Assembly (NCBI RefSeq): GCF_009467795.1
Contig: NZ_WIAX01000002.1
Coordinates: forward strand, 1 to 64,000
Direction: 5' to 3'
From: Nesterenkonia halophila
GTDB taxonomy: Bacteria; Actinomycetota; Actinomycetes; Actinomycetales; Micrococcaceae
Length of the DNA stretch: 64,000 nt
The position numbers and the translations under genes were made by a program. This document shows, in pieces, positions 14,386-21,987 of this stretch. Within the stretch, counting starts at the first letter, position 1. Every line of letters begins with the position of its first letter. The notes under the pieces were generated by a model. The model saw nothing but the letters and a program-made list of their open reading frames with translations, searched no databases and was not told where the DNA came from.

Positions 14386-16311
14386 TCAGCCGTCGATGAC
14401 GGCGGCGAGCTCGTCCAGGAAGCCGGCGAAGCCCTCGCCGCGGCGGATGATCCGGGTGACGCTGTCGCGTTCGCTGAAGACTTCGACGAGCTGCTCGAAG
14501 ACGGTCTGGAAGGCCTCGCGCTCCTCCTCGCTGAATGCTGTCAGCGCCACCACCTGGACCCGGGAGTCGCCCCAGGGCAGCGAGCCGTCGGCGATCCCGA
14601 TGGAGATCGCCGTCCGCGAGGCGGTCATCCGCAGCGCGTGCGGCACCGCCAGCGTCTCGGTGAAGGCGGTGGAGGAGAGCTGCTCGCGCTCGACGGTGTT
14701 CTCCACGTACTGCTGATCGATGACCCCGCGGGCGACGAGCGGCTCGGCGAGCGCGCGGATCGCCTCCTCCTCGTCGGCGGCGACCAGCGGGCGGATGAAG
14801 GCGTCCTCGCTCAGGTACCGCGACAGCTCCGCGCGCAGCCGGGCCAGCCGCAGGCTCCGCCGCCGTCGGGCGGCCGCCGCGGAGATCCGCCCCAGGTCCC
14901 CCTCGGAGAGGAACGGCGGCAGCCGCACGGTCCGCTCGTCGGGCTGCGGCGGCTCGATGGTGGTCAGCACCAGGTCGGTGTCCACCGCCTCCCAGTCCGG
15001 GTCGACGCCGGTGAGCACCTCGGTGACCTCGATGGAGGGACCCAGCGAGCGGGCGATGCGCGAATGCAGCAGCTCGTGCAGCTCGTAGTAGCCGGGGCAG
15101 ACGATCGTGGCGGTCAGCACCGTCTCGGCCTGCCGGCTGCGCTCCAGGCGCCCGCCGACGTGCATGGCGATATAGGCGATCTCGTCGTCGTGGATGGTCA
15201 CCTCCAGCTGCTCGCCGACGTCGCTGGCGATGGAGACTGCGACCTGGAAGATCATCGGGAAGTCGGACTTCAGCGAGCGGGTCAGCGGGTTCCGCGACGG
15301 CGCGTGCTCCCGGGCGCGCAGCACCAGGTTCTGTACATGCAGGGTCAGCCGGCGGATGAAGTCCTCATGGGCGATGTCGACCAGGTAGCCGTGGGCGGCC
15401 CGGGTCACCGCCGTGCGCACCGCCTCCTCGACCGTCGGATCCAGGCGCACCCGCTCCTCGGCCGCGCCGCCGGGGGCGACGACGCGGGTGAGCACCAGCG
15501 AGGTCAGATGCTGCAGATCGCCGGAGCCCATGGCGACGTCGAAGTGTCGGAGGCACAGAGTGTCGAGCACCTCGGCGAGGCGCCGCTGGTCCTCGTCGGC
15601 CTCGCCGCGGGTGGTCTCCAGCGCCCGGCCGCGCGAGACGCGGTCGGCGGCGATCGCGATGTGCAGCGCGACGTCGGCGGCGGCGAACTCGTTGACGTAG
15701 TAGCCCAGGGCGGCCAGTTCGGCGCCCAGCTGCTGGGTGAAGGGGCCGAAGGCCCGGTCGTCGACCGTCTCCAGTCCGGCGGCCCGGCGCAGCACGCCGA
15801 CGTCGAAGGTGCCCTCCTCCATCTCGTCGTGGGCCAGTCGGGAGACCAGCCGACGCCGGGAGATCTCGTCGCCGTCGAGCGTCACGATCGAGCCGCTGCG
15901 GCGCAGTCGCAGTGCCGTGTCCTCCAGCAGGCCGCGGATGCGGGCGAGGTCGGCCTCCACGGTGGCGTCGCTGACGTGATGCCGCTCGGCGGCGGCGAAG
16001 ACGTCGAGGCCCTGATCGGCGTCGAGCAGCTCGCGCACCAGGCGGTGCAGCCGGTCGCGCGGGCTGGCGCGCTGTTCGCCGCGCAGCGTGGCCAGCACGG
16101 CCCGGTCGGCTCGGTAGCCGGCCGGGCCGGACTCCACGGCCTCGCCCTGGCCGGCGTGTGCGGCGCGGGCGTTGATCCGGGCGATGTAGGAGCGCACGCT
16201 GCGCGGGGTGACCCCGAGCCGGTCGGCGAGTGCGGCGGCGGTGATCCAGCCGTCGCCGTGCAGCAGGATGCTGATCAGCTTCTCCCGGCGCTGGCCGGTC
16301 ATGCGCTCCAC
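14386..16311 (-). CDS. mtlR: BglG/MtlR-type PTS-regulated transcriptional activator
   Basis: Likely controls the divergent mannitol PTS operon in response to PTS phosphorylation. The 641-residue protein has an N-terminal helix-turn-helix (REKLISILLHGDGWITAAAL, about 10-60), a second HTH-like region, two PRD domains (about 180-400; conserved histidines in SIASDVGEQ and AYIAMHVGGR areas), a IIB-like domain (TIVCPGYYELHELLHSRI, about 400-490) and a C-terminal IIA domain (about 500-641; AVPHALRM with the phosphorylatable histidine). Start GTG 16311 is 7 nt after GGAGG; ATG 16302 is an alternative. The product is called MtlR from its neighbours. Confidence 0.88.
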   Translation of the reverse strand: MERMTGQRREKLISILLHGDGWITAAALADRLGVTPRSVRSYIARINARAAHAGQGEAVESGPAGYRADRAVLATLRGEQRASPRDRLHRLVRELLDADQGLDVFAAAERHHVSDATVEADLARIRGLLEDTALRLRRSGSIVTLDGDEISRRRLVSRLAHDEMEEGTFDVGVLRRAAGLETVDDRAFGPFTQQLGAELAALGYYVNEFAAADVALHIAIAADRVSRGRALETTRGEADEDQRRLAEVLDTLCLRHFDVAMGSGDLQHLTSLVLTRVVAPGGAAEERVRLDPTVEEAVRTAVTRAAHGYLVDIAHEDFIRRLTLHVQNLVLRAREHAPSRNPLTRSLKSDFPMIFQVAVSIASDVGEQLEVTIHDDEIAYIAMHVGGRLERSRQAETVLTATIVCPGYYELHELLHSRIARSLGPSIEVTEVLTGVDPDWEAVDTDLVLTTIEPPQPDERTVRLPPFLSEGDLGRISAAAARRRRSLRLARLRAELSRYLSEDAFIRPLVAADEEEAIRALAEPLVARGVIDQQYVENTVEREQLSSTAFTETLAVPHALRMTASRTAISIGIADGSLPWGDSRVQVVALTAFSEEEREAFQTVFEQLVEVFSERDSVTRIIRRGEGFAGFLDELAAVIDG

Positions 16312-16512
16312 TCCACGGCCTCCACCCTACCGCCCGTGCCGCGGGCCGGTCCGAGGGCGGGAGAGGTCCGGGTGACCGCGCGGCGAGCGGCGGATGGACG
16401 CGGGGAGACGGGCGCGTGGCCTGCAGATTTCCGCCCCCGGGGAAACAGCCATGGTTGTGACCCAGGTCGCCGGGGCAGAGAATCTGAGAGGAAGAGGAGG
16501 AGTGAGCGATCG
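16312..16512 (+). promoter_or_regulatory. Divergent control region between mtlR and the mtl operon
   Basis: A 201-base region between oppositely oriented genes. On the plus strand TTGTGA (16455-16460) and GAGAAT (16478-16483) are 17 bp apart, a plausible promoter. On the minus strand TAGGGT (16324-16329) is the likely -10 of mtlR. TTTCCGCCCCCGGGGAAA near 16428-16445 is a small inverted repeat that could be a regulator site. All inferred. Confidence 0.4.
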
Positions 16513-16902
16513 ATGGAGATCCTGGTGGTCTGCGGCGCCGGCGCGTCCAGCACGTTCGTCGCCCAGCGCATCCGCCGCGGCGCGGAGGCCGAGGGCCTGG
16601 ATCTCCGCGCGTCCGCCGGCACCGAGGCGATGCTGCCCGGGGCCGTCGACACCGTCGACGTCGTCCTCCTGGGGCCGCAGCTGGCGGACCGCGCCCCGGA
16701 GATCCGCCGCCGCGCCGCGCTCGTCGGCGCCGCCGCGGCGGTGCTGCCGGAGAACGTCTTCCGCGATCCCGACGGGACGGCCGCCCTCGAGCTGGCCCGC
16801 CGCGAGCTCGCCGCCGTCCGGGCGGGCGCCGGCCCCGCCGGCCCCGCCGACACTGCCGACACCGCTGACGCCGATCACTCTGCTCAGGAGGATTCCCCAT
16901 GA
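16513..16902 (+). CDS. Stand-alone PTS IIB-like protein
   Basis: The 129-residue protein starts MEILVVCGAGASSTFVAQRI, the phosphocysteine loop of lactose/cellobiose-type IIB domains (Cys7), and continues with a short Rossmann-like core ending VLLGPQLADRAPEI. A Pro/Ala/Asp-rich tail of about 30 residues follows. It would pass phosphate from a IIA to a IIC sugar channel. It heads the mtl operon, although MtlA already carries its own IIB, so its partner is unclear; a regulatory link to MtlR is possible. AGGAGG is 12 nt upstream of the ATG. Confidence 0.75.
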   Translation: MEILVVCGAGASSTFVAQRIRRGAEAEGLDLRASAGTEAMLPGAVDTVDVVLLGPQLADRAPEIRRRAALVGAAAAVLPENVFRDPDGTAALELARRELAAVRAGAGPAGPADTADTADADHSAQEDSP

Positions 16903-16967
16903 TCATCCGCACCCATGACCGCCCGACGGCCGCCTCGGCCGCGACGCCCTCGGAGGTGAGCCGCTGA
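16899..16967 (+). CDS. 22-residue mini-ORF coupled to both neighbours
   Basis: ATG 16899 overlaps the IIB stop (ATGA) and its own TGA overlaps the ptsI ATG (TGATG). A near-ideal ribosome site, AGGAGGA at 16886-16892, lies 6 nt before its ATG. The 22-residue peptide (MIIRTHDRPTAASAATPSEV and two more residues) matches no family I know. It sits where an HPr gene often precedes ptsI but has no HPr phosphohistidine motif. It could be a coupling peptide that sets ptsI translation, a real small protein, or a vestige. Confidence 0.5.
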   Translation: MIIRTHDRPTAASAATPSEVSR

Positions 16968-18631
16968 TGGCGCGCCTGGAGGGCATCGGCGTCGGCCAGG
17001 GCGTCGCGCACGGACCGGTGGCCCGCATGGCCCCGGTCCCCGAGGCTCCGGGGGAGGAGCAGTCCGCGCTCACCGCCGAGCAGGAGACGACCCGGGTCGA
17101 GGAAGCCGTGGCCGCCGTCGCCGAGGACCTGAAGGCCCGCGGCGAGGCCGCCGGCGGCTCCGCCCGCGACGTGCTGCAGGCCCAGGCCATGATGGCCAAG
17201 GACCCCACGCTGAAGAAGGCCGCGGCCGCGCGGCTGGAGAAGGGACTGACCGGCGAGTTCGCCGTCCACGACGCCTTCGCCGAGTTCCGCGCCACGCTGG
17301 AGGGCATGGGCGGCTACATGGCCGAGCGCGCCGCCGACCTCGCCGACGTCTCGCAACGGGTCATCGCCCGGCTGCGCGGGCTGCCGGCTCCGGGCGTGCC
17401 GACGCCGGGCCACCCGTTCGTGCTGGTCGCCGAGGACCTCGCCCCGGCCGACACTGCGCTGCTGGACCTGGATCAGGTGCTCGCCGTGGTGACCATCCAG
17501 GGCGGGCCGACCTCGCACACTGCGATCCTCGCCCGGGAGAAGGCGATCACCGCCGTCGTCGGCGCCGTCGAGGCCGACCAGCTGCACGACGGACAGACGG
17601 TGATCGTCGACGCCGCCGACTCGGCGGTGCTCACCGAGGTGAGCGAGGGGCAGCGCGCCGAGGTGCAGCGGCGCATCGACGAGCGCGCCGCCGCCGTGGC
17701 CGCACCGGTGACCCCCGGGGCGCTCGCCGACGGCAGCGAGATCCCGCTGCTGGCCAACCTCGGCTCGCCCGACGGCGCGGCCGAGGCCGTGGAGCTCGGC
17801 GCCGAGGGCGTGGGCCTGTTCCGCACCGAGTTCCTCTTCCTCTCCGCCGACGCGGCGCCCGACGTCGCGACCCAGCGGGAGGCCTATCGGCGGATGCTGG
17901 AGGCCTTCCCCGGGAAGAAGGTCGTCGTCCGCGCGCTCGACGCCGGGGCGGACAAGCCGCTGCCCTTCCTCACCGAGGAGGAGGAGAACCCGGCGCTGGG
18001 TCGTCGCGGGCTGCGGGCGCTGCTGGCGCACGAGCAGATCCTGCGCGACCAGCTGACCGCGCTGGCCGAGGCGGAGGCGGAGAGCGAGGCCGACGTCTGG
18101 GTGATGGCCCCGATGGTCTCCACCGTCGCCGAGGCCGAGCAGTTCGTCGCCCTCGCGCGCGAGCACGGGCTGCGCACCGCCGGGGTGATGGTCGAGGTGC
18201 CGTCCTCGGCGCTGGTGGCCGAGCCCATCCTGAGGCATGCGGACTTCGCCTCGATCGGCACCAACGACCTGACCCAGTACACGATGGCCGCCGACCGGCT
18301 GCTCGGCTCGGTCGCCGATCTGCAGGACCCGTGGCACCCCGCGGTGCTGCGGCTGGTCGGCGAGGTCGGCTCCGCCGGAGCGGCCACCGACTCGCCGGTG
18401 GGCGTCTGCGGCGAGGCCGCCGCCGACCCGCTGCTGGCCCTGGTGCTCGTCGGCCTCGGGGCGACCAGCCTGTCGATGGCCCCGGCCGCGCTGGCCGACG
18501 TCCGCCTCGAGCTGCGCCGGCACACTGCCGAGACCGCTCGGGCCGCCGCGCAGGCGGCGCTCGCGGCGGGAGACGCCGCGGGCGCGCGCGGCGCTGCGCA
18601 GCAGGTCCTGCGCGAGGCCGCGCAGGGCTGA
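16967..18631 (+). CDS. ptsI: Phosphoenolpyruvate-protein phosphotransferase (Enzyme I)
   Basis: Takes phosphate from PEP and passes it to HPr, the first step of all PTS transport. The 554-residue protein has the N-terminal HPr-binding/phosphohistidine domain (GGPTSHTAILARE, phosphorylated His184), the linker, and the C-terminal PEP-binding barrel (GVGLFRTEFLFL, SIGTNDLTQYTMAADR, and the catalytic cysteine in VGVCGEAAADP). ATG 16967 overlaps the mini-ORF stop and has GGAGGTGA upstream. It is transcribed with the IIB gene; no HPr gene is visible in the window. Confidence 0.95.
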   Translation: MARLEGIGVGQGVAHGPVARMAPVPEAPGEEQSALTAEQETTRVEEAVAAVAEDLKARGEAAGGSARDVLQAQAMMAKDPTLKKAAAARLEKGLTGEFAVHDAFAEFRATLEGMGGYMAERAADLADVSQRVIARLRGLPAPGVPTPGHPFVLVAEDLAPADTALLDLDQVLAVVTIQGGPTSHTAILAREKAITAVVGAVEADQLHDGQTVIVDAADSAVLTEVSEGQRAEVQRRIDERAAAVAAPVTPGALADGSEIPLLANLGSPDGAAEAVELGAEGVGLFRTEFLFLSADAAPDVATQREAYRRMLEAFPGKKVVVRALDAGADKPLPFLTEEEENPALGRRGLRALLAHEQILRDQLTALAEAEAESEADVWVMAPMVSTVAEAEQFVALAREHGLRTAGVMVEVPSSALVAEPILRHADFASIGTNDLTQYTMAADRLLGSVADLQDPWHPAVLRLVGEVGSAGAATDSPVGVCGEAAADPLLALVLVGLGATSLSMAPAALADVRLELRRHTAETARAAAQAALAAGDAAGARGAAQQVLREAAQG

Positions 18632-18661
18632 GCCCGCCGGGGACCTGCTCGGCTTCCTCCT

Positions 18662-18692
18662 CGGGGCGGGGAGACCGTTCCTCCCCGCCCCG
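18662..18692 (+). terminator. Hairpin between ptsI and mtlA
   Basis: CGGGGCGGGGAG (18662-18673) pairs perfectly with CTCCCCGCCCCG (18681-18692) around a 7-base loop. No T-tract. It may reduce read-through from ptsI into mtlA or stabilise the upstream message. Confidence 0.55.
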
Positions 18693-18769
18693 CCGGGGTC
18701 CTGTCCCGCACCGGTCAGGGCGTCCGCCCTCCGATCACTCCCGACACCCACTGATATGAAAGGTCGACG

Positions 18770-20794
18770 ATGACCACCCAATCCCCCGAGCGCGGCTCGT
18801 CGCCGGGCAGCCTGCGTGTCGGCGTCCAGAAGTTCGGCTCCTTCCTCTCGGGCATGATCATGCCCAACATCCCCGCGCTGATCGCCTGGGGACTCTTCAC
18901 CGCGTTCTTCATCGAGGTCGGGTGGACCCCGCACGCCGCCCTGGCGACGGTGGTCGGGCCGATGATCCACTACCTGCTGCCGGTGCTGATCGCCATGCAG
19001 GGCGGCAAGATGGTCCACGACGTCCGCGGCGCCGTGGTCGGCGCCGTGGCCACCTTCGGCGCGATCGCCGGGTCGGATCACCTCATCGCGCAGTTCAACG
19101 CCTCGCTGCCCGAAGGCGAGGACGCGCTCGGCGAGGTGCACATGTTCATCGGGGCGATGATCCTGGGCCCGCTGAGCGCCTGGGCGATGAAGAAGGTCGA
19201 CGGCGTCCTCGACGGCCGCATCAAGGCCGGCTTCGAGATGCTGGTCTCGATGTTCTCCGGGGGCTTCCTCGCCTTCGGCATGAGCCTGGTGGGCTTCTTC
19301 GGCGTCGCTTCGCTGGTCAACATGATCATGGACGTGCTCGGCCGCGGCGTGGAGTGGCTCATCTCCACGAACCTGCTGCCGCTGACCAGCGTCCTCATCG
19401 AGCCGGCCAAGGTCTTCTTCCTCAACAATGCCATCAACCACGGCGTGCTCACGCCGTTGGGCGTCTCGGAGGTCGACTCGGCCGGCCAGTCGATCCTGTT
19501 CCTCCTCGAGGCGAACCCCGGTCCGGGGCTGGGTCTGCTGCTGGCGTTCTCGGTCTTCGGCGTCGGTGCGGCGCGAGGCTCCGCCCCGGGCGCGGCGATC
19601 ATCCAGTTCTTCGGAGGCATCCACGAGGTCTACTTCCCCTACGTGCTGATGAAGCCCACGCTGCTGATCGCGGTGATCGTCGGCGGCGCCACCGGCGTGG
19701 GCACCAACGTGCTCTTCGACACCGGTCTGCGCGGACCGGCGGCTCCGGGATCGATCTTCGCCGTGGTCGGGCAGACAGCCTCGGGCAGCTACCTGGGTGT
19801 CATCCTCTCCGTGGTGCTCGCCGCGGCGGTGACCTTCGTCGTCGCCTCGTTGATCCTGCTGGCCGGGCGGAAGAAGGACCTGGAGAGCGCGGACGACTTC
19901 GCCGAGGCCGTGGCGAAGACCGAGGCCACCAAGGGCAAGTCCTCGGCGGCGCTCTCCGGCCTCGCCGCACAGGCCTCCGGGGGAGCCGCCGTCGCGCAGA
20001 AGAAGATCGAGCGGATCATCTTCGCCTGCGACGCCGGCATGGGCTCCTCGGCCATGGGCGCCTCGGTGCTCCGGAACAAGATCAAGGACGCCGGCATCGG
20101 GGGCGTCTCGGTGACCAACAAGGCCGTGGCCGCCCTGCCGGGCGACACCGACCTGGTCATCACCCAGCAGCAGCTCACCGACCGGGCGAAGGGCCAGGAG
20201 CCCGATGCCGTCCACGTCTCGGTGGACAGCTTCATGGACGCCCCCGAGTACGACGAGGTCGTCGAGATGGTCCGGCAGTCCGCCGAGGACGGCGGCGCCG
20301 AGCCGGCCGAGGCCGCTGCGCGGGGCGCGGCGGACGAGCCCGCCGCCCAGGACGGCCCCGGCGAGATCCTCACTCTGGACCGGGTGCGCATCCATTCCGG
20401 CTCGGCCACTCAGCAGGAGGCCATGGCCGAGGCCGCCGAGGTCCTCGTCGCCGCCGATGCGGTCACCGAGGACTATCTGGCGGCGATGCAGGCCCGCGAG
20501 GAGACCGTCTCGACCTTCATGGGCAACGAGCTGGCCATCCCGCACGGCACCGGTGAGGCCAAGGACGCGGTCAAGGCCTCCGCGCTCTCGGTCGCCCGCT
20601 ATGACGGCGGCGTCGACTGGAACGGCCAGCGGGCCATCTTCGTCATCGGCATCGCGGGCGTCGGGGACGAGCATCTGCAGATCCTCTCGCGGATCGCGAA
20701 GCTCTTCTCGAAGGTCGAGACCGTCGAGCAGCTGAAGGCCGCGACCACCGAGCGGGAGCTGCACGAGCTGCTCTCGTCGATCGAGCAGAGCTGA
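18770..20794 (+). CDS. mtlA: Mannitol-specific PTS enzyme IICBA
   Basis: Imports mannitol and phosphorylates it to mannitol-1-phosphate. The 674-residue protein contains the membrane IIC domain (about 1-365; QKFGSFLSGMIMPNIPALIA, FLNNAINHGVLTPLG, GGIHEVYFPYVLMKP), the IIB domain (about 410-510; ACDAGMGSSAMGAS with phosphocysteine Cys420) and the IIA domain (about 530-674; LAIPHGTGEAKDAV with phosphohistidine His592). The domain order and motifs match E. coli MtlA. mtlD follows after 11 bases, which confirms the substrate. Confidence 0.95.
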   Translation: MTTQSPERGSSPGSLRVGVQKFGSFLSGMIMPNIPALIAWGLFTAFFIEVGWTPHAALATVVGPMIHYLLPVLIAMQGGKMVHDVRGAVVGAVATFGAIAGSDHLIAQFNASLPEGEDALGEVHMFIGAMILGPLSAWAMKKVDGVLDGRIKAGFEMLVSMFSGGFLAFGMSLVGFFGVASLVNMIMDVLGRGVEWLISTNLLPLTSVLIEPAKVFFLNNAINHGVLTPLGVSEVDSAGQSILFLLEANPGPGLGLLLAFSVFGVGAARGSAPGAAIIQFFGGIHEVYFPYVLMKPTLLIAVIVGGATGVGTNVLFDTGLRGPAAPGSIFAVVGQTASGSYLGVILSVVLAAAVTFVVASLILLAGRKKDLESADDFAEAVAKTEATKGKSSAALSGLAAQASGGAAVAQKKIERIIFACDAGMGSSAMGASVLRNKIKDAGIGGVSVTNKAVAALPGDTDLVITQQQLTDRAKGQEPDAVHVSVDSFMDAPEYDEVVEMVRQSAEDGGAEPAEAAARGAADEPAAQDGPGEILTLDRVRIHSGSATQQEAMAEAAEVLVAADAVTEDYLAAMQAREETVSTFMGNELAIPHGTGEAKDAVKASALSVARYDGGVDWNGQRAIFVIGIAGVGDEHLQILSRIAKLFSKVETVEQLKAATTERELHELLSSIEQS

Positions 20795-20805
20795 GGAGCA
20801 CGATC

Positions 20806-21987
20806 ATGGCTGACAGCACGAACAGCGCCGCCCGGCCCACGGCGGTCCATTTCGGCGCCGGCAACATCGGCCGCGGCTTCGTCGGGATGCTGCTGCACGA
20901 GGGCGGCTACGAGGTCGTCTTCTCCGACGTCGCCGCGCCGCTGGTCGACGCGCTGGCCGCGGCCGACTCCTACACCGTCCACGAGGTGGGCACGGGCGGC
21001 GTCGACCGCGAGGTCACCGGGTTCCGCGCGGTCAACTCTGCGCAGGACCCGGAGGCCGTCGCCGCCGAGCTCGCCGGAGCCGCCGCGGCGACCACCGCCG
21101 TCGGCCCGACGGTGCTGCGCTTCATCGCCCCGCATCTGGTCGAGGGGCTGCGCCGGCGCGACGCCTCGGCCGAGCCGCTGCAGATCATGGCCTGCGAGAA
21201 CGCCATCGGCGCGACGGACACGCTGCGCGAGCACATGGTCGCCGCGGCCGCCGACGTCGGTGCGGACTGGGCGGAGCTCGCGGCGAAGGCGGTCTTCGCC
21301 AACACGGCGGTCGACCGCATCGTCCCCGGCCAGCCGGAGGACGCCGGACTGGACGTGACGGTCGAGCCCTTCTACGAATGGGCCATCGAGCGCGGTCCCT
21401 TCGGTGACCGGCCGCCTGAGGTGCCCGGGGCGCACTTCGTCGACGCGCTGGGTCCCTATATCGAGCGCAAGCTGTTCACCGTCAACACCGGCCACGCCGC
21501 CGCGGCCTACCTGGGCGCACGGGCCGGACACGGCACCGTCGCCGAGGCGCTGGCCGACGAGCGGGTCGCCGCCGGCGTCGCCGCCGCGCTGCAGGAGACC
21601 TCGGCGGTGCTGCACGCCCAGCACGGGTTCAGCGAGGCGGAGATGGCAGACTACCGGGCCACGATCCTGCGGCGCTTCGCCAACCCGGCCCTGCCCGACA
21701 CCGTCGGCCGGGTGGGGCGCCAACCGCTGCGCAAGCTCTCCCGGCACGAGCGGCTCATCGGCCCGGCCGCCGCGGCCGCGGAGCGGGGGTTCTCGGTCGA
21801 CGGGCTGCTCGCCGTCGTCGACGCCGCGCTGGCCTTCCGTGACGCCGGCGACGAGCAGGCCGGCCAGCTGGCGCGGCTGCTCGCCGAGCTGCCGCCGGGC
21901 GAGCTGGTCGCGCGGATCACCGGGCTGGAGGACGAGCATCCGCTGGCGCCGCGGGTGCAGGAGCTGATGGCCCGCCACCAGACTTGA
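20806..21987 (+). CDS. mtlD: Mannitol-1-phosphate 5-dehydrogenase
   Basis: Oxidises mannitol-1-phosphate to fructose-6-phosphate with NAD+. The 393-residue protein has an N-terminal Rossmann motif (VHFGAGNIGRGFVGMLLHEG), ACENAIGATDTLREHM, and the catalytic-region NTGHAAAAYLGARAGH with the lysine of ERKLFTVN just before it. Length and motifs match the polyol-specific long-chain dehydrogenase family. Last gene of the mtl operon; one of the 60-bp palindromes begins 9 bases after its stop. Confidence 0.95.
   Translation: MADSTNSAARPTAVHFGAGNIGRGFVGMLLHEGGYEVVFSDVAAPLVDALAAADSYTVHEVGTGGVDREVTGFRAVNSAQDPEAVAAELAGAAAATTAVGPTVLRFIAPHLVEGLRRRDASAEPLQIMACENAIGATDTLREHMVAAAADVGADWAELAAKAVFANTAVDRIVPGQPEDAGLDVTVEPFYEWAIERGPFGDRPPEVPGAHFVDALGPYIERKLFTVNTGHAAAAYLGARAGHGTVAEALADERVAAGVAAALQETSAVLHAQHGFSEAEMADYRATILRRFANPALPDTVGRVGRQPLRKLSRHERLIGPAAAAAERGFSVDGLLAVVDAALAFRDAGDEQAGQLARLLAELPPGELVARITGLEDEHPLAPRVQELMARHQT

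Follow-up and report, generated by a model that had tools for sequence, protein, structure and literature searches.

The stretch analysed here, referred to as the window, is a piece of 64,000 nucleotides (nt) from Nesterenkonia halophila (contig NZ_WIAX01000002.1). The element in question is an open reading frame (ORF) of 22 codons, MIIRTHDRPTAASAATPSEVSR, which lies between the gene of a small IIB-like protein of the phosphotransferase system (PTS) and ptsI, the gene of Enzyme I, in a mannitol operon (Table 1). According to the sequence and the list of ORFs, it begins with the ATG at 16899 and closes with the TGA at 16965–16967. The initial annotation had described overlaps at both ends of this ORF and an AGGAGGA ribosome site at a spacing of 6 nt, and both descriptions hold: ATGA joins the IIB stop to the ORF start, TGATG joins the ORF stop to the ptsI start, and the Shine-Dalgarno (SD) sequence stands 6 nt ahead of the ATG. 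The range 16886–16969 originally assigned to the element takes in this SD and the ptsI ATG. That the product belongs to no family was likewise confirmed by the lack of Pfam and NCBIfam matches at E 0.01, and in the same search, with PF00381 tested, an HPr domain was absent from the 22 residues.

The openness of the frame and its ATGA mean little by themselves. An open frame of 22 codons is expected by chance, as it persisted in 84% of 5000 dinucleotide shuffles of the gap, and the stop form [AG]TGA is frequent: in a roughly defined set of 83 coding-like window ORFs, in which false ORFs are possible, 22 end in this way. It is the context that exceeds chance, since the same two junctions flank ptsH, the gene of HPr, in 10 of 20 relatives. 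The slot of that gene is the main subject of the following sections.

Table 1. Features of the slot and of the surrounding operon, with positions counted from the first letter of the window
Feature	Position	Strand	Basis or remark
ORF MIIRTHDRPTAASAATPSEVSR, putative translation relay, in the slot of the relatives' ptsH	16899..16967	+	Sequence, ORF list, genus comparison, GC content at third codon positions (GC3)
ATGA, 4-nt overlap of IIB stop and ORF start	16899..16902	+	Same as IIB–ptsH junction in 10/20 ptsH-bearing relatives
TGATG, 1-nt overlap of ORF stop and ptsI start	16965..16969	+	Same as ptsH–ptsI junction in 10/20 relatives
Shine-Dalgarno AGGAGGA of the ORF, 6 nt before ATG	16886..16892	+	Read from sequence; longest exact anti-SD match 6 nt
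ptsI Shine-Dalgarno GGAGGTGA, inside the ORF	16952..16959	+	8-nt exact match
Enzyme I codon Q71	17177..17179	+	D/E in 19/19 slot-type and 4/4 outgroup rows; other-type rows (25): E 19, Q 4, K 2
Enzyme I codon K84	17216..17218	+	K in 3/3 ptsH-less and 25/25 other-type rows; D/E in 23/23 slot-type and outgroup rows
Small PTS IIB-like protein, 129 aa, ends in ATGA	16513..16902	+	PF02302 5.7e-11; TIGR00853 2.7e-13, below cut-off
ptsI, Enzyme I, 554 aa	16967..18631	+	TIGR01417 2.6e-114, above cut-off; PF02896, PF00391, PF05524
Mannitol PTS IICBA (mtlA)	18770..20794	+	NF011663 2.8e-200, above cut-off
Mannitol-1-phosphate 5-dehydrogenase (mtlD)	20806..21987	+	NF002652 1.2e-116, above cut-off
PRD/EIIA-containing transcriptional regulator, divergent (HTH_11, PRD, PTS_EIIA_2)	14386..16311	-	PF00874 1.5e-16, PF00359 1.1e-18, PF08279 4.7e-10

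ptsH in the relatives

Thirty genomes of the genus were compared, including that of the window (G000). A ptsI of the window type, at least 69% identical, was found in 23 of them; the copy in G001 ends at a contig end and that in G014 is broken by a stop. Directly ahead of it, 20 of the 23 carry a ptsH of 88–90 codons (with an in-frame stop in G014), and the statement of the initial annotation that HPr often precedes Enzyme I in this slot is thus correct for the genus. The three genomes with no ptsH in the slot are G000, G021 (ptsI 93% identical) and G001 (ptsI 75% identical). The IIB query, taken as the frame from 16513, finds a match in 19 of the 30 genomes, and the match in G021 is 94% identical.

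In 10 of the 20 ptsH-bearing genomes, ptsH overlaps IIB by 4 nt in an ATGA and ptsI by 1 nt in a TGATG, which makes the junctions of the 22-codon ORF ones of the ptsH kind. Both are present in G016, the nearest ptsH-bearing genome by ptsI identity. The other ten comprise G005 and G010, where IIB and HPr lie in one uninterrupted frame, G014 and G015, with a gap of 29–33 nt, and six genomes with no IIB ahead of ptsH (G003, G006, G007, G013, G017 and G027). In 80 loci from named genomes, surveyed by HPr motif only, the motif was found within 450 nt before ptsI in 19 and was absent from 60, while one locus was too short.

A maximum-likelihood tree of ptsI was obtained with a midpoint root and with G014 left out; two outgroup rows fall inside the genus. 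In this tree G000, G021 and G001 make up one side of a branch with a support of 94/96, and the presence of ptsH changes once in 93% of 200 bootstrap trees. The four outgroup rows, which were chosen by us, have HPr-coding sequence before ptsI as judged by eye. Because the three ptsH-less genomes group together, ptsH was probably lost once in their lineage, this being the simplest history. The initial annotation had named a lack of the ORF in relatives among the observations that would speak against it. Most relatives do lack it, as ptsH occupies the slot there; their slot is not empty. A search for the first 21 bases of the ORF covered 295 family genomes, G021 not among them, and allowed up to 3 mismatches. 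Matches were obtained in 83; G000 gives the sole exact match among the matches listed and the rest have 2–3 mismatches.

Some observations on these genomes are recorded here in their own right. In G005 and G010 (L094, L098) the uninterrupted frame of 240 residues is an apparent IIB–HPr fusion, or else a frame with two starts. In G014 (L105, L142; 62% complete) a TAA stands in frame within ptsH and the match to ptsI is broken as well, which may reflect either decay of the operon or a sequence error. Neither HPr nor a ptsI match was found in four of the 30 genomes (G002, G009, G020 and G025), three of which are at least 98% complete, and some members of the genus may lack the PTS.

The slot without ptsH

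The three ptsH-less genomes have in common an SD-preceded start at the end of IIB and a frame which is open to Enzyme I or fused with it. In G021 this frame is a GTG-start ORF of 30 codons, VIIRTHDSRAPRPAARAEATAIPTTAEVVR, with the same TGATG end. In G001 (L141, contig C97) an ATGA start is in frame with ptsI and gives an Ala/Ser-rich N-terminal extension of Enzyme I, MTSSLLPHASSQEVAPAVSAASAATAEQPAPGARTLSGTG... Conservation of length among relatives, proposed earlier as a check, is therefore not observed: the slot holds 22 codons in G000, 30 in G021 and an extension of Enzyme I in G001. The suggestion of a small PTS-associated peptide was not borne out either, as the three genomes differ in the sequence, length and start codon of the frame and even in whether it stands as an ORF of its own.

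Comparison of G000 with G021 gives a similar picture at the level of bases. The IIB genes are identical at 354 of 366 positions (97%; 19 gap columns) and the ptsI genes at 1537 of 1665 (92%). From codon 8 to the ptsI SD only 19 of 32 aligned bases are identical, with a gap of 24 nt, and the slot beyond codon 7 is the least conserved stretch compared between the two. By codon position 1, 2 and 3, the identities in the ORF are 12/22, 18/22 and 20/22, on a slot alignment that is uncertain. They run in the reverse of the order which protein constraint would be predicted to leave. The check on codon-position bias thus came out with the highest identity at third positions, which is not the mark of a conserved small protein gene.

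Composition provides evidence of another kind. In the divergent part of the frame, with G000 and G021 pooled, G or C occupies 38/38 third positions, 28/38 first positions and 31/38 second positions. Among letter shuffles, 4 of 5000 did as well as the pooled frames, and among dinucleotide shuffles 1 of 1000. With the last six codons removed, which hold the ptsI SD, these counts rise to 106 of 5000 and 34 of 1000, respectively; for G000 alone 58 of 1000 shuffles were as good, which is not striking. The pattern provides modest evidence for a frame that would be translated with its product being irrelevant.

The SD sequences were compared as well. The exact match of the ptsI SD is 8 nt in G000 (GGAGGTGA) and 7 nt in G021 (GGAGGTG) as compared with 0–4 nt in the 20 ptsH-bearing relatives, where the ptsI start was chosen by us if several were possible. 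The SD of the slot ORF matches over 6 nt as compared with 3–5 nt before ptsH in the 20 relatives, and the fused start in G001 has 5 nt. Without the ORF, the gap between IIB and ptsI would be 64 nt (72 nt in G021). According to excerpts of two reports (PMC10666635; PMC6728339), genes that overlap by 4 nt or 1 nt are translationally coupled, coupling by termination and reinitiation nearly disappears when the gap is about 20 nt, and in E. coli the last 15 nt of the upstream gene are enough for coupling.

The reading which we prefer, with a confidence somewhat better than even, is that the vacated ptsH slot serves as a translation relay or initiation module for Enzyme I, made up of a relay frame and a strong SD, in which the peptide is incidental. 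The ancestral operon was most likely IIB–ptsH–ptsI, with ptsH joined by the 4-nt and 1-nt overlaps. From the genus comparison and the grouping in the ptsI tree, ptsH would have been lost in the lineage of G000, G021 and G001, and a short open frame would have stayed between IIB and ptsI. Ribosomes finishing IIB would reinitiate at the start of the ORF, make a peptide of no further use and terminate at the ptsI start, next to its strengthened SD. Enzyme I would in this way stay translationally tied to the operon, the 64-nt gap being closed by an ORF with both overlaps. Regulation of ptsI translation by the ORF, as the initial annotation had considered, is plausible in the form of a passive relay.

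Several observations weigh against the relay. Only three genomes in the set have a window-type ptsI and no ptsH. The ATGA is not kept in G021, where IIB runs on through a one-base difference and the left overlap is 20 nt, not 4; together with the GTG start, this arrangement is less favourable for reinitiation. In G001 the IIB frame that ends at the slot is broken further upstream. The ptsI gene has its own strong SD and may initiate alone. No conserved RNA structure was found: the fold at the ptsI start is somewhat strong in G000, where 8 of 200 shuffles equalled it in stability, and not in G021, where 98 of 200 did, and the minimum-energy fold of the whole slot is like that of shuffles (z 0.19).

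A trace of ptsH in the slot was sought by local and by start- or stop-anchored alignment with the 20 ptsH genes, scored against shuffles. None was found in G000 or G021, where the anchored scores exceeded the shuffle means by little or not at all, and this too tells against the relay. The best case in these two genomes was the local DNA alignment of G000, for which 82 of 500 shuffles were as good. G001 gives a weak trace (18 of 600 codon shuffles as good over 51 nt and 57 of 600 over 36 nt), with an unremarkable local score (121 of 500 shuffles). The case for descent from ptsH is therefore made by position, junctions and phylogeny, not by sequence, and the 22-codon ORF could be either a shrunken ptsH or new sequence between junctions of the ptsH type.

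The main rival takes the ORF as incidental: after deletion of ptsH, ptsI would have gained a strong SD of its own and become self-starting, and the frame would be a by-product of GC-rich sequence, with little translation or none that matters. This accounts for the SD of 7–8 nt in G000 and G021 against 0–4 nt in the relatives, for a frame that most shuffles leave open and a stop form that is common in the window, and for the lack of conservation in peptide and length. It does not account for the ORF having a 6-nt SD of its own and both ptsH-type junctions around it, for the TGATG being kept in frame over the 24-nt indel in G021 (a chance of 1/3), or for the third-position GC bias. We regard the incidental ORF as possible but doubtful.

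A functional PTS-associated microprotein, selected for its sequence, would explain the good SD, the coding-like GC3 and the residues 2–7, IIRTHD, common to G000 and G021. These shared residues adjoin IIB, which is itself 97% identical, while the rest of the ORF has only 19/32 identical bases with a 24-nt gap and an identity that peaks at third positions. Moreover, G001 is without IIRTHD and no family match was obtained, and such a protein is considered quite unlikely. Still lower, as very unlikely, stands a regulatory sensor ORF that would gate ptsI on a signal, either as an intergenic ORF of the mgtQ type or as an attenuation leader. Position and SD resemble those of Salmonella mgtQ in excerpts of PMC8092293, where, however, mgtQ begins 51 nt past the upstream stop with no overlap; the slot has no conserved fold, and the peptide starts (MIIRTHD, VIIRTHD) have no acidic run. 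An artefact of assembly or sequencing that dropped ptsH, for which the 65.52% completeness of G000 might be invoked, is hardly credible, as the slot is contiguous in the window and the separate, 93%-complete G021 is also without ptsH there.

Among the papers listed in literature searches, none reported a ptsH slot that has become a small ORF, or bridge ORFs after gene loss. The relay suggests how a gene inside an operon, overlapped at both ends, could be lost: its coding content disappears and a short frame with the same junctions stays. The remaining bridge frame could keep downstream translation coupled. Annotation would either list bridge ORFs of such a kind as small proteins of unknown function or pass them over.

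It was also noted that the identity of G000 and G021 drops in steps along the operon (15467–20128), from 97% in IIB to 92% in ptsI and 80% in part of mtlA. A recombination event between ptsI and mtlA may lie behind this.

HPr supply and the Enzyme I partner

With PF00381, one HPr each was found in G000 (65.5% complete), G021 (93%) and G001 (96%). In G000 it lies outside the window, at C11:129287-129535, beside a fructose EIIC gene (TIGR01427 3.6e-99), and the HPr of G021 also adjoins a fructose EIIC gene (TIGR01427). In G001 the neighbour of the sole HPr found is a second ptsI-like gene, which is in two pieces (L113, L146). The HPr of G000 is 80–99% identical to five fructose-type HPrs, 55–56% to four of a second fructose type and 47–56% to the 20 slot HPrs. 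As the only HPr found in G000 is at the fructose locus, it is presumably this HPr that now feeds the Enzyme I of the mannitol operon.

The HPr gene in G000 is followed by a gene for a SixA-like phosphatase (TIGR00249 3.9e-14, below cut-off; PF00300) and one for a Trans_reg_C regulator. The SixA-like (phosphohistidine phosphatase) motif was seen near the fructose-locus HPr in 5 of 10 loci (L110, L111, L116, L117 and L119), in a search by motif in which the G000 protein alone was checked against families. The SixA-like protein is a candidate phosphatase of HPr.

In the alignment of Enzyme I, the broken G014 and the columns with no G001 residue were left out. Only three columns, Q71, K84 and D299, are common to G000, G021 and G001 and unlike all 19 slot-type and 4 outgroup rows. 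The 25 rows of the other type, with which Table 1 compares two of these residues, are 22 members of the family and G012, G028 and G029. By our own count Q71 and K84 align to positions 74 and 87 of the E. coli protein, and they lie in the N-terminal part of Enzyme I, which binds HPr.

Corresponding differences were observed in HPr. Position 20 is K in 20/20 slot HPrs and A or S in 28/28 fructose-type and family HPrs (6 from the genus and 22 from the family); position 40 is K in 20/20 slot HPrs and D or E in the same 28/28. Each of the 22 family genomes gave 1–4 HPr matches, of which the best one was used. In the second fructose type, all four HPrs carry A at position 20 and lack an acid at position 40. 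In excerpts of PMC8509676, residue 20 of HPr is among the main contacts that it makes with Enzyme I in E. coli. The change from D/E84 to K looks complementary to the charges at positions 20 and 40 of HPr, in the manner of a charge exchange.

We tentatively propose, as a possibility of lower rank, that the entry of the PTS has been rewired in these genomes, the slot having shrunk to a ribosome relay while the docking face of Enzyme I would have been re-tuned to the HPr of the fructose locus. A number of points speak against such a switch of partner. The two big groups amount to one contrast and the ptsH-less group is the second. At column 361 a charge swap separates the big groups, and the three ptsH-less rows do not follow it. 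Of 47 type-diagnostic columns, 35 place these rows with the slot type and none with the other type, 12 being mixed; K84 is outside these columns because the slot types vary between D and E. Finally, Q71 is not the usual residue of the other type, and the HPr-binding part of Enzyme I has not evolved faster in the ptsH-less group.

Two further candidates were rejected. A general convergence of the ptsH-less Enzyme I to the other type was not seen (0/47 diagnostic columns), and faster evolution of the HPr-binding part in the ptsH-less group was not seen (1.26 as compared with 1.34 for the C-terminal domain). Close relatives with and without a local HPr offer a defined pair for studying whether Enzyme I and HPr keep or change their partner.

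Comparison with known systems

The nearest known arrangement is that of coupled gene pairs with ATGA (-4) and TGATG (-1) overlaps, as described in excerpts of PMC6728339 and PMC10666635. The slot shares both junctions, and an SD stands before both starts. The overlap of stop and start is found on both sides in G000 and on the right side only in G021. Unlike in those pairs, the middle cistron of the predicted coupling is of 22 codons, its product is not conserved and it lies on the site of the lost ptsH.

Within the genus, the ORF takes the place of ptsH in IIB–ptsH–ptsI, and in 10 of 20 relatives ptsH is joined to its neighbours by the same two junctions. It differs from ptsH in its length, 22 codons in place of 88–90, in having no HPr domain and in that no residual similarity was found.

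Excerpts of PMC8092293 describe mgtQ of Salmonella as an intergenic ORF of 8 residues before mgtB, with an AGGAGG SD and a length that varies among species. The slot ORF is likewise short, in an operon, preceded by AGGAGG and of different length among genomes. By the same excerpts, mgtQ has its start 51 nt beyond the stop of the preceding gene and works through translation abortion at acidic residues and alternative stem-loops. The slot ORF does not begin with acidic residues, its minimum-energy fold gives the z of 0.19 mentioned above, and its local fold is not common to G021.

With regard to HPr, excerpts of PMC2405797 place an actinobacterial ptsH at the fructose locus (deoR-fruK-fruA-ptsH), and the HPr gene of G000 likewise lies beside a fructose EIIC gene. 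As compared with that system, the G000 copy would serve the Enzyme I of a mannitol operon whose relatives have a ptsH of their own.

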